Source: Kineosporia babensis (GTDB lineage: Bacteria; Actinomycetota; Actinomycetes; Actinomycetales; Kineosporiaceae). Taken from it: 64,000 nucleotides of DNA. The first letter of the stretch is position 1; each line of letters opens with the position of its first letter. Below, in pieces: positions 7,402-10,266 of the stretch. The DNA lies in the NCBI RefSeq assembly GCF_021129305.1, contig NZ_JAJOMB010000011.1, positions 124,001 through 188,000 on the forward strand, given 5' to 3'. The position numbers were made by a program, and so were the translations under genes. Below the pieces are notes generated by a model. That model was given only the letters and a program-made list of their open reading frames with translations, was not told where the DNA came from and searched no databases.

Positions 7402-7604
7402 CGATGACCCTCCAAGGGTTCTCAGCTCGGCGCAACCCGGATCACCAGTCTCACATGTCAGGCGTCCGAGCACTGAGCGTCACCGCCGGGCCGGACATTG
7501 ACCCAAACCGGTTGCCCGCTGGGCCGAATGCCGGAAACCCACTTCACCACCCACGTCCCTGATTCCGATGACCTGCTGAAACACACTCGGTGAGGGGACT
7601 GCGG

Positions 7605-8354
7605 ATGAGCACGGCCACGGACGACACTCCCCCGCAGAGCCCACCTACGGCCACCGACGAACTGCTGCACGACATCGCCGAGGAAGCACCCCTGCGCGAT
7701 CCGGTGCGCCGCCGTCGGCTGCTGCTCGGCCTCGGGATCGTGGTGCTCGTGGTGGCGGTCGTGCTGGGTGGCCTGCGGCTGGGCGGCCTGCTCGGTGGTC
7801 CCAGCGAGGCTGAGAAGGACCAGGACGCGCTGGTCCAGGTGCAGGAGCGGATCCTGCCCGAACTGCGCGAGCTGATGAGCCAACGAGAGACGTTCTTGGC
7901 CGCCGAACGCCTGTACCTGCCGGCCATGCAGGAGGCGGGTGAGCAGGCCCGGGTCTACAACCGCCGTTACGCGGCCGGTCAGCGCCGCACGCCGGTGCCC
8001 GATCTGGCCGAGCAGACCAGCGATCTGGAGCAGGTGGTGCGGGACACGACCGCCCTCGGCACCAAGCTGACCGAGGCGAAACCCGGCGCCGGCGTGACCT
8101 CCGAGGCGCACGACTACCTGCTCTCGGCCGTGCACACCCTGACCCGCAACGCCGCCCGCAACCTCCGGGTGCTGCAGCGCAGCCGGGGACCGTACGTCCT
8201 CACCCAGGTCAACAACGAGAACGCTCTGACCGCGATCAAGCGGATGAACAAGTCTCTGCTGTACGTGCTGGACGCCGCCCAGCTGCCGGTCGCGGACTTC
8301 GACCTTCCGGGCGGGACCGACAAACACCCGCACGACCACAGCACCTTGATGTAA
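7605..8354 (+). CDS. single-span membrane protein with helical extracytoplasmic domain
   Basis: Protein of 249 residues. A basic cytoplasmic segment (RRRR near residue 40) precedes one transmembrane helix at about residues 44-66, followed by a helical region rich in E, Q, R and L that may form a coiled coil, and a His-rich end (KHPHDHS). No enzymatic motif; family not recognised. ATG at 7605 is preceded by GAGGGGA with 6-7 nt spacing. Its last codons contain the -35 element of the next transcription unit (TTGATG at 8346-8351), so the two genes are tightly packed but probably separately transcribed. Confidence 0.65.
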   Translation: MSTATDDTPPQSPPTATDELLHDIAEEAPLRDPVRRRRLLLGLGIVVLVVAVVLGGLRLGGLLGGPSEAEKDQDALVQVQERILPELRELMSQRETFLAAERLYLPAMQEAGEQARVYNRRYAAGQRRTPVPDLAEQTSDLEQVVRDTTALGTKLTEAKPGAGVTSEAHDYLLSAVHTLTRNAARNLRVLQRSRGPYVLTQVNNENALTAIKRMNKSLLYVLDAAQLPVADFDLPGGTDKHPHDHSTLM

Positions 8355-8373
8355 CCCGAACCAGGCGTACACT
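8346..8373 (+). promoter_or_regulatory. promoter of the FBP leader transcript
   Basis: TTGATG (-35, 8346-8351), a 16-nt spacer and TACACT (-10, 8368-8373) form a good housekeeping-type promoter. A GTG begins 7 nt after the -10 box, exactly where transcription is expected to start, so the transcript should begin with a start codon. The -35 overlaps the last codons of the upstream gene. Confidence 0.6.
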
Positions 8374-8380
8374 CGCTGAC

Positions 8381-8458
8381 GTGTCTGGTTCCTACTCGTG
8401 TCCTCCGCCCGCTGGGCGTCTGGAGGTTGCTGGCGCCCTCCGCGCCGGCACGAGGTAG
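8381..8458 (+). CDS. leaderless leader peptide with Pro-Pro-Pro motif
   Basis: A 25-codon frame starting with GTG at the predicted transcription start and ending with TAG at 8456-8458. The peptide contains the run Cys-Pro-Pro-Pro at residues 7-10 and ends in ALRAGTR. Runs of three prolines stall ribosomes unless rescued by EF-P, and here they precede a gene for an EF-G-binding-type domain. The mRNA around the Pro codons can form a hairpin (CGCCC 8406-8410 with GGGCG 8414-8418). Too short for statistical support; the evidence is the exact promoter-to-GTG spacing, the stop codon and the structured RNA that follows. Confidence 0.45.
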   Translation: MSGSYSCPPPAGRLEVAGALRAGTR

Positions 8459-8567
8459 TTCTGCCCTCAATCGGTGACCAGAGCTCCGCGCTCTGCACGG
8501 CCCTTTGCGGCCTTCGGCACCCCCTTTGAGACCACTGTTCCCGGCCGCCCGACGAGGCTGCCGGGCG
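8402..8567 (+). promoter_or_regulatory. structured leader RNA, possible attenuator, upstream of FBP gene
   Basis: Several stems are visible: CGCCC/GGGCG (8406-8418), GGCGC/GCGCC (8432-8446), CAGAGC/GCTCTG (8479-8495) and, near the FBP start, two mutually exclusive stems that share one strand: CCCGGC (8540-8545) with GCCGGG (8560-8565), or CGCCCG (8546-8551) with CGGGCG (8562-8567). A choice between these, depending on translation of the leader peptide, could control read-through or access to the AGG ribosome site at about 8577. This is inference from base pairing. Confidence 0.4.
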
Positions 8568-8587
8568 ATCAGACATGAGGCAGAACT

Positions 8588-9079
8588 TTGCGTTCCATCA
8601 CCGAGAAGCAGATCCGCACATCCTTCGTGAACTCCACCCTGCGTGAGCGCAAGGAGCTCGTGCTGCCGGAGAACTTCGCCGAGCTGGACTGGGAGAACCT
8701 GGACTACCTGGGCTGGCGCGACCGCAAGTACCCGAACCAGGGCTACGTCTTCGCCGAGATCGACGAAACCCTGGTCGGCGTGGTGCTGCGCCGCTCCGAC
8801 GGCCTCACCCGCAGCCGTCCGCTGTGCAACTGGTGCGAGGACGTCACGCTGCCCAACGACGTGGTGTTCTTCAGCGCCCGCCGGGCCGGCAAGGCCGGGC
8901 GCAACGGCAACACCCTGGGCACCCTGGCCTGCGCGGACTTCGAGTGCTCGGCCAACGTCCGGGTGCTGCCGCCGCCCGCCTACGAGGGCTTCGACCGTGA
9001 GGCCGCCCGCATCCAGCGGATCGAGGCCCTGCAGCTGAACGTGTACGCCTTCGTCAGCGCGGTCGTGAAGGACGAGTGA
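8588..9079 (+). CDS. FBP domain protein (EF-G-binding, treble-clef zinc finger)
   Basis: Protein of 163 residues matching the FBP domain, the C-terminal treble-clef zinc finger of FusB/FusC proteins that bind elongation factor G and free it from fusidic-acid-stalled ribosomes. Zinc ligands are visible as C-x2-C in 'PLCNWCED' and C-x4-C in 'ACADFEC'. Actinobacterial members are usually this short and their role is uncharacterised; ribosome rescue or antibiotic tolerance is plausible. The start is a TTG at 8588 with ATGAGG about 7-10 nt upstream; the upstream ATG at 8575 is out of frame. The long structured leader suggests translation-linked control. Confidence 0.75.
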   Translation: MRSITEKQIRTSFVNSTLRERKELVLPENFAELDWENLDYLGWRDRKYPNQGYVFAEIDETLVGVVLRRSDGLTRSRPLCNWCEDVTLPNDVVFFSARRAGKAGRNGNTLGTLACADFECSANVRVLPPPAYEGFDREAARIQRIEALQLNVYAFVSAVVKDE

Positions 9080-9133
9080 CCTGAGGCACAGTCGATCGCA
9101 CAACCTCCGCACAGGGTCGCGCGTCGTACCGAG

Positions 9134-9703
9134 GTGATGGTCACGTTCAGGTCTGCCGGCAACCCGCCCGGGGTCGGTGAGGAGTTGCCGGCTCTGTCGT
9201 CGCTCGATCCACAGAGCGCGGTCGAGGCGTTGTTCGACCGCTATCAGTTGCGCATGCTGCGGGTGGCGACCGTACTGGTCGGGGACCCGGCCCAGGCCGA
9301 GGACGTGGTGCAGGACGCGTTCCTGGCCGTGTACAACAGCTGGGACCGGATCCGGAACAAGGACGAGGCGGTCGGGTACCTGCACCGCAGCGTGATCAAC
9401 ACGGCGCGCTCGCGATTACGGCGGCGCTCGGTGGTGCAGCGGCTGGCCGGGCTGCGGCACCACGACCAGATCAGTGCCGAGGACGCCGTGCTGAAGGCAC
9501 AGCTGCCCGGGCCGCTGACCGCGGCGCTGGCGGCGCTGCCGCGGCGGGAGCGGGAGGTGGTGCTGCTGCGGCACTACCTGGATCTGTCGGAGAAGGAAAC
9601 AGCGGACGCTCTCGGGCTGCGGGTCGGGTCGGTTAAGGGGTACGCCTCGCGCGGCCTGGCCAAGCTGCGCAAGGTGCTCGACGGGAAGGAGGATCAGCGA
9701 TGA
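9134..9703 (+). CDS. ECF RNA polymerase sigma factor, SigE-family
   Basis: Sigma factor of 189 residues with region 2 ('LFDRYQLRMLRVATVLVGDPAQAEDVVQDAFLAVYNSWDRI', core-binding and -10 recognition) and region 4 ('LPRREREVVLLRHYLDLSEKETADALGLRVGSVKGYASRGLAKL', helix-turn-helix for -35). Arrangement is that of the SigE-family (TIGR02983-like) ECF group. The start may be GTG 9134 or ATG 9137; no ribosome site can be placed for either. The stop overlaps the start of the next gene (ATGA at 9700), so sigma factor and membrane protein are translationally coupled, a common layout for sigma and its regulator. Confidence 0.9.
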   Translation: MMVTFRSAGNPPGVGEELPALSSLDPQSAVEALFDRYQLRMLRVATVLVGDPAQAEDVVQDAFLAVYNSWDRIRNKDEAVGYLHRSVINTARSRLRRRSVVQRLAGLRHHDQISAEDAVLKAQLPGPLTAALAALPRREREVVLLRHYLDLSEKETADALGLRVGSVKGYASRGLAKLRKVLDGKEDQR

Positions 9704-10266
9704 CGGACGACGAACTGCTCGCCCAGCGGCTGCGGGGGCAGATGGACGAGGAACTCGGCGACATCCAGGTCCGGGCCGGTTCCCGCGAGCGGCTGCGCCA
9801 GGGCATGCGCAAGGAGAAGCGGGTGCCGTGGTTGCGGCCCTCGATCATGGTGCCGGTCGGGGCGGCCACTGCGATCGCGGCCACGGTGCTGGCGATTCCG
9901 CTGCTGCTGAACCAGGACGACCAGCAACGGGTAGAGGTGGTCCCGGCTGGGCCGCCGGCGGTGAGCAGCGTCCCCGCCGAGCCGGCTCCTACGCCGACCG
10001 AGTCGGCGGTCGAGAAGCAACCGAAGGTCGCGCCGTCGGCAGAGCCGTCGTCCTTGGAGGATGCGCCGACCGACGACAGCCGGAAGAACCGGACGCCGGA
10101 GCGCACCGAACCCTCGCAGGCCCCGGTCCGGGAGACTGAGAGCAAGCTCCGCCCTGATGCGCCGGAGTCGCCGACGGCGGCCACCGAGGACCCGACCGAG
10201 GCCCGGCCGACTTCCGAGGTGCCCGGTGCCACCCAGGAACCCATCGTGGCCGGCGACGCCGAGTAG
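9700..10266 (+). CDS. membrane protein coupled to ECF sigma factor, possible anti-sigma factor
   Basis: Protein of 188 residues: a cytoplasmic head of about 45 residues ('LLAQRLRGQMDEELGDI' then 'RERLRQGMRKEKR'), one transmembrane helix near residues 49-71, and a disordered Pro/Glu/Thr-rich extracytoplasmic tail. There is no HxxxCxxC zinc motif, so it is not a classical ZAS anti-sigma factor, but genes in this position (overlapping ATGA with the sigma gene, GGAAGGAGG ribosome site) usually encode the sigma regulator. The tail has 'DPTEARPTSE', closely like 'EPTEARPVPA' in the secreted protein downstream. Confidence 0.6.
   Translation: MTDDELLAQRLRGQMDEELGDIQVRAGSRERLRQGMRKEKRVPWLRPSIMVPVGAATAIAATVLAIPLLLNQDDQQRVEVVPAGPPAVSSVPAEPAPTPTESAVEKQPKVAPSAEPSSLEDAPTDDSRKNRTPERTEPSQAPVRETESKLRPDAPESPTAATEDPTEARPTSEVPGATQEPIVAGDAE

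Follow-up and report, generated by a model that had tools for sequence, protein, structure and literature searches.

The window, that is, the entire 64,000-nucleotide stretch of Kineosporia babensis DNA that was analysed, carries an FBP_C gene preceded by a short upstream open reading frame (uORF), which raises the question of whether ribosomes on this uORF control the synthesis of FBP. An earlier note had proposed that they do, with a Pro-Pro-Pro run in the leader peptide sensing slow elongation. The elements that it listed, a promoter-like pair, a GTG 7 nt beyond it, a 25-codon frame and a TAG, are all in the sequence (Table 1), the 7 nt being counted from TACACT to the GTG at 8381-8383. TTGATG overlaps the final codons of the upstream frame, and a generic sigma-70 scan listed no promoter site here; TTGATG/TACACT has 8 of 12 matches and the scan threshold is 9. 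Promoters were compared across relatives as a TANNNT box.

The gene product corresponds to a stand-alone C-terminal zinc domain of FusB/FusC. VIA-align ranked FusC and FusB first for FBP and aligned the treble-clef fold; FusC/FusB residues were matched from about 84 on only, and the N-terminal four-helix bundle of these proteins is absent from the 163-aa FBP. No FusB was among the matches listed by Foldseek for FBP, where none had E < 0.001. Four cysteines expected of zinc ligands (C80, C83, C115 and C120) are invariant in 32 FBP sequences with the spacing CxxC-x31-Cx4C; that of FusB is CXXC-X23-CX5C according to PMC3352095. From the sequence and the fold we infer that FBP may bind EF-G or rescue ribosomes here. 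The closest named relative is the FBP of Kineosporia mesophila (76% identity), which was found unchanged in another genome of the genus. Adjoining FBP, positions 9137-10266 of the window hold a SigE-family sigma factor gene and then an overlapping frame of 188 aa, for which there was no Pfam or NCBIfam match.

Table 1. Features of the FBP leader and gene, numbered by position in the window
Coordinates	Strand	Feature	Basis
8346..8373	+	Promoter-like pair TTGATG (8346-8351) and TACACT (8368-8373), 16-nt spacer	Sequence
8381..8458	+	Putatively leaderless uORF, 25 codons, VSGSYSCPPPAGRLEVAGALRAGTR, stop TAG 8456-8458	Sequence and relatives
8381..8387	+	GTGTCTG, predicted mRNA 5' end; complement of CAGACAT (8570-8576) just before the FBP Shine-Dalgarno	Sequence
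8406..8418	+	Hairpin 1, CGCCC-GCT-GGGCG; missing in the short-uORF lineage	Core alignment
8422..8427	+	GGAGGT, Shine-Dalgarno-like, internal to the uORF; GGRGGU in relatives	Core alignment
8430..8448	+	Hairpin 2, CTGGCGC-N5-GCGCCGG; both-side changes at 3 of 8 tested pairs	Alignment
8453..8458	+	AGG codon, then stop TAG	AGA/AGG frequency at uORF ends
8457..8469	+	Post-stop strand AGTTCTGCCCTCA; complement of the FBP ribosome-binding site, partner TGAGGCAGAACT (8576-8587)	Sequence, predicted pairing
8570..8590	+	FBP ribosome-binding region and TTG start; predicted target of both competing leader strands	Sequence, masking calculation
8588..9079	+	FBP_C gene, 163 aa, TTG start	Pfam PF16571, E 3.8e-52

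Distribution of the leader among FBP loci

FBP_C loci were gathered by protein similarity, 50 from named genomes and 6 from 13 genomes of the same family. The leader precedes 43 of these 56 loci, a count that includes the window copy and one repeat (L055 and L002 have an identical leader), and its frames in these 43 loci span 22-30 codons, start with GTG or ATG and share one common core. Frame and stems are thus conserved, as the earlier proposal needed them to be. With 22 further loci, 65 were read in detail; eight that repeat other loci (L087-L092, L097 and L098) stand outside this set, and L157, L160 and L162 are outside all 65-locus counts.

A covariance model of the core, whose E-values are rough by design, was run on 396 genomes of the order and gave 40 matches down to E 1.4e-5. 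All but two lie just upstream of FBP_C, the 38 including L157, where FBP is split between two frames. The leader marks only some of the FBP_C carriers, which number 170 among the 396 genomes. In the window leader the model matched 8396-8458 with 70.5 bits, and in this genome (89 contigs) the leader is strong only once (E 1.3e-16, next match 0.007). Known Rfam families gave four matches in window 8200-8700, all far below the gathering score (E 1.5-4.9), and were rejected.

In a quick tree of 139 proteins, drawn with branch support not considered, the leader carriers cluster together, apart from a Streptomyces-like branch and several other FBP branches. The outlier is L104, with a divergent FBP (36% identity) and a strong leader; its genome has a second FBP. 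L022, recorded as Sporosarcina beigongshangi, also carries the leader, and its FBP clusters with that of the Arthrobacter locus L014; the record may bear a wrong name or be contaminated.

Outside the order, one further carrier (L160) was found among 394 genomes of the class. The class-wide family search found 103 genomes with FBP, of which 30 loci were read (L057-L086), and no leader was recognised in these; their best peptide-profile scores were 4.0-6.0, and weak leaders could be missed among them because some true weak carriers score similarly (5.7-5.9). At E <=1e-4, 7 of 19 class-wide RNA matches had no nearby FBP (L161 and L163-L168, L168 being the same place as L155). Candidate motifs before other genes (L154, L155, L156, L158 and L159) overlap long frames on one or both strands, look chance-like and were set aside.

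Of the 56 loci, thirteen are without the leader. In six, whose FBP lies on the same branch as that of the carriers (L009, L012, L013, L015, L018 and L019), FBP comes right after a TetR-family gene whose end ranges from 4 nt within FBP to about 65 nt short of its start, and TetR_C_33 was present in 6 of 6 of these upstream genes tested; here operon control seems to replace the leader. Five are Pseudoclavibacter loci; in the two scanned (L042 and L044) an alpha/beta hydrolase gene lies about 25 nt ahead of FBP, and L010 and L050 make up the rest.

Reading frame, RNA core and encoded peptide

In 62 of the 65 loci the uORF start follows a TANNNT box at a gap of 6, 7 or 8 nt, with no box at any other gap within 0-19, a figure to be read knowing that starts were partly chosen with this box in mind. 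In 15 of the 65 (L005, L008, L014, L017, L020, L022, L024, L046, L051, L104, L109, L110, L112, L115 and L116) the choice of start was made by eye or departed from the top-ranked candidate. A fixed rule, the first ATG or GTG 5-9 nt after TANNNT, was usable at 61 loci (three had no start and one no anchor) and at 58 of these gave a start that shares the frame of the core, compared with 54 of 149 start codons without a TANNNT box. Among 64 loci the start-to-core distances were 21, 30, 39, 42, 45, 48 and 51 nt, every one divisible by three; a single locus deviates, at 41 nt. Frames of 15 codons with neither hairpin 1 nor prolines, such as VSSQEVVGARCADIR, characterise a lineage made up of L109, L110, L112 and L115. 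By frame conservation, these loci have the short conserved frame before the gene that is expected of a uORF attenuator, and from promoter spacing the uORF seems to be leaderless, translated from the mRNA 5' end. Leaderless regulatory short ORFs in Actinomycetes are also represented by the mycobacterial polycysteine uORFs, which differ in responding to cysteine through Cys codons; here only 24 of the 65 uORFs have any Cys, and they are not Cys-rich.

The features common to the leaders are the start 6-8 nt after TANNNT, GGRGGU, one or two GC hairpins, usually AGA or AGG near the stop, and an unbroken frame. The core consensus, from 39 gapless rows, is CGCCC-N3-GGGCG-U-NN-GGRGGU-NN-UCGGCGC-N5-GCGCCGA-NNN-AGR-stop; these rows represent 39 of the 43 leaders, with L037 and L055 (duplicate cores) and L032 and L051 (not gapless) excluded. 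At 51 of 65 loci the uORF has AGA or AGG immediately before its stop, and the two together account for 5 of 151 Arg codons in seven ORFs of the window. In the stems, 91.2% of cells are paired, against 32-50% when the stems are slid, and the covariation score exceeds all 500 shuffles. Pairs changed on both sides numbered 4 of 14, a number reached by 261 of 500 shuffles, and the number of pair types was reached by 74 of 500. Folding of the whole window leader is ordinary (z -1.03; equalled or bettered by 32 of 200 shuffles).

Conservation of the leader is at the level of the RNA, as judged from the alignment. Mean information was 1.21 bits at codon position 3, 1.13 at position 1 and 1.08 at position 2, and the codon preceding GRG is variable at its first two positions, whereas its third is G in 38 of 39 rows. 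In L051, L113 and L162 the core is partly in another frame and the central peptide is scrambled, yet these loci retain the start, an unbroken frame, AGA beside the final codon and the codon-25 stop. It therefore seems to be the ribosome's path, rather than the central amino acids, that is conserved.

This pattern bears on the possibility that arrest by the nascent peptide, at Pro-Pro-Pro or at an RLEVxGAxxAGTR-stop end, acts as the sensor. The window's own Pro-Pro-Pro and the common ends of the peptides in its genus would suit such a sensor, but just two of the 65 loci have Pro-Pro-Pro, both of them members of the window's genus, whose other five rows have SAP, TAP or TPP instead; the variable codon before GRG and the three loci with a scrambled central peptide likewise argue against it. 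We regard peptide arrest as very improbable. The Pro-Pro-Pro sensor of the earlier note thus falls away, and peptide sensing in general is disfavoured by a third codon position conserved like the other two and by the three loci that shift the frame of the central motif.

RNA-level conservation with nearly invariant unpaired bases would also be expected if the hairpin-GGRGGU-hairpin core were bound by FBP or another factor that represses FBP translation, with the uORF secondary. FusB binds nucleic acid, and regulation of its own synthesis has been suggested, according to PMC3352095. A bound RNA does not account for a frame kept through seven start-to-core distances and compensated shifts, or for a lineage without hairpin 1. 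In addition, the R of GGRGG is A in 21 rows and G in 18 (other positions being 37-39 of 39), and both A and G pair with U of the 16S anti-Shine-Dalgarno, which suits pairing with rRNA. A protein-binding RNA is accordingly a poor candidate in our view, if a slightly better one than peptide arrest.

Pairing with the FBP start and simulated ribosome occupancy

The two competing strands that the earlier note saw near the FBP start are both present (Table 1). Pairing and masking were assessed at 64 of the 65 loci, L020 (spacer 339 nt) being excluded, and at 27 diverse representatives. Between the first 30 nt of the mRNA and the FBP start region (-24 to +9), complementarity had a mean z of -1.22 against shuffled targets (p 3.8e-5; 27 loci) and a mean rank of 0.23 among other windows (p 3.6e-5; 27 loci), and cognate pairs of 5' end and FBP start had an advantage of 3.1 kcal/mol over expectation, which no permutation out of 10,000 equalled (27 loci). 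The control segment, nt 31-60, gave no complementarity signal with the FBP start region in the 27 loci. The window's 5' 30 nt had a z of -2.2, the best of its windows, and the strongest complementarity of the 27 was that of L104 (z -4.8); in seven of the 27 (L003, L014, L046, L052, L103, L108 and L110) z was at least -0.2. For loci of Microbacterium, GUGCAU at the uORF start is able to pair with AUGCAC at the start of FBP; the helix beside it moves as the sequence changes (for instance CACGACG-CGTCGTG in L029, TTGCTTC-GAAGCAA in L021). For the post-stop strand the cognate excess had p 0.0002, but the z-test was not significant (p 0.17; 27 loci); its pairing is clear in several leaders of the window's genus and mixed elsewhere. 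Whole leaders showed only a weak cognate excess with the ribosome-binding site (59 of 2,000 permutations as good; 64 loci). As a group trend, then, a leader strand is predicted to mask the downstream ribosome-binding site.

Ribosome occupancy was simulated by masking parts of the leader. With nt 1-17 masked, predicted accessibility of the FBP start rose in 46 of 64 loci and fell in 7 (p 1.2e-7); among the representatives it rose in 17 of 27 and fell in 4 (p 0.007). The gain from 5'-end occupancy was modest, at 7-9 points. A queue reaching from the 5' end through the internal Shine-Dalgarno also raised accessibility (p 0.019; 26 representatives). Masking only around the internal Shine-Dalgarno did not open the FBP start (p 0.92; 26 representatives), nor did a ribosome at the uORF stop (p 0.64; 27 representatives). 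By this calculation the FBP start opens only when the 5' end is occupied; ribosomes stalled at the internal Shine-Dalgarno would therefore have to work by way of a queue or by delaying clearance of the 5' end.

In the window, accessibility went from 0.37 to 0.37 with the 5' end alone masked, was 0.28 with a ribosome at the stop and reached 0.52 with both strands masked: 5' end and post-stop strand compete for one region, and only double masking opens the FBP start. The calculation for the window would thus support an attenuator only if both strands are covered. Of the five other leaders of the genus, L002 behaved like the window, L056 rose slightly with any masking, and L052, L053 and L054 showed no rise with both strands masked.

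The stretch between uORF and FBP could alternatively work at the level of transcription: when FBP is untranslated, Rho would load on the C-rich, G-poor sequence that follows the uORF and terminate transcription, unless ribosomes on the uORF or FBP prevented it. All 27 representatives have more C than G in the spacer from uORF stop to FBP (means 0.437 and 0.298), and 15 of the 27 do so upstream of the promoter; a scan of window 7500-9500 found no terminator-like site; the topAI operon with its uORF toiL has both a translational and a Rho layer. The first 240 nt of FBP also have C > G in 26 of 27, however, so the bias is not specific to the leader, and Rho leaves the conserved GGRGGU and the complementarity of 5' end and ribosome-binding site unexplained. 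Rho-dependent termination as the main output is in our estimate unlikely; the C-rich spacer leaves room for such a layer beside attenuation, as in toiL/topAI, and is a possible Rho loading region.

The proposed attenuator and known systems

The reading we favour, and hold with moderate confidence, is translational attenuation by the leader: ribosomes that stay long on the uORF would uncover the FBP start. The conserved uORF with its frame and RNA core, complementarity to the start of FBP and the FusB-like fold can be read from the compared sequences, and from them we infer where transcription starts, in which direction control runs, that the core slows ribosomes and which stress induces the gene. 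Transcription would begin at or next to the uORF start codon, and ribosomes would load there with no 5' UTR before them. With the uORF free of ribosomes, the 5' end of the mRNA would pair with the FBP ribosome-binding site, joined in the window's genus by the post-stop strand, and FBP would be off. The internal GGRGGU, the GC hairpin or hairpins and the AGR-stop end would slow ribosomes on the uORF; slowed ribosomes, queued back to the 5' end, would cover the masking strands and FBP would be made. This would happen when elongation, especially EF-G-driven translocation, falters.

A more specific version, in which the uORF is an RNA-encoded gauge of EF-G, is tentative and to our mind doubtful, though less so than a main output through Rho. 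The leaderless start would be loaded by 70S ribosomes, the internal Shine-Dalgarno and GC hairpin would slow translocation, and the 5' end, start codon included, would be antisense to the start of the FusB-domain gene, so that poor EF-G function would open the rescuing gene with no need for a drug or an arrest peptide. 70S ribosomes pile up when recycling fails. Loading of leaderless starts by 70S ribosomes is described in a review.

The earlier note took attenuation to be undescribed for this family, which does not hold: according to PMC12008383, PMC12493156 and PMC3352095, fusidic acid induces fusB of pUB101 by translational attenuation at its leader. The fusB (far1) leader of this staphylococcal plasmid resembles that of FBP in serving a FusB-family protein and in that fusidic-acid-stalled ribosomes restructure the mRNA and free the Shine-Dalgarno of the gene (PMC12008383, PMC12493156, PMC3352095). 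It differs in belonging to a plasmid resistance gene with fusidic acid as known inducer, whereas a one-domain protein of actinobacterial genomes is at issue here, and the accessible descriptions of it mention no leaderless start, internal Shine-Dalgarno or AGR-stop, unlike what is found here. One of these papers, a review, states that regulation of FusB homologs remains unknown.

Another related system is the toiL uORF of Escherichia coli topAI-yjhQ, which pairs with the ribosome-binding site of the next gene, held ribosomes opening that site; its target gene is unrelated and Rho-dependent termination is reported there (PMC12121999). We know of no conserved core in toiL like that of the FBP leader. 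The whiB7/wblC uORF controls transcription of a regulator gene, unlike the FBP leader as proposed here. It is likewise an actinobacterial uORF, lying before the gene of an antibiotic-resistance regulator.

Literature searches, limited to open-access papers, found no report of an actinobacterial FBP leader. What appears to be new here is the putative leaderless start, the RNA-level core with its internal Shine-Dalgarno, the predicted pairing of 5' end and start region, and the tie to one branch of stand-alone FusB-domain proteins. Of the translation-sensing attenuator first suggested for this locus, the conserved ORF, leaderless by its promoter spacing, and the strands that could mask the ribosome-binding site stand, and the peptide sensor does not. 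If the proposal is true, this attenuator would be read through features of the mRNA and not through a peptide. The leader offers a concrete, testable model of regulation for an actinobacterial branch of the FusB family, and it hints that these FBP proteins may be standing translation-stress factors rather than acquired resistance genes.
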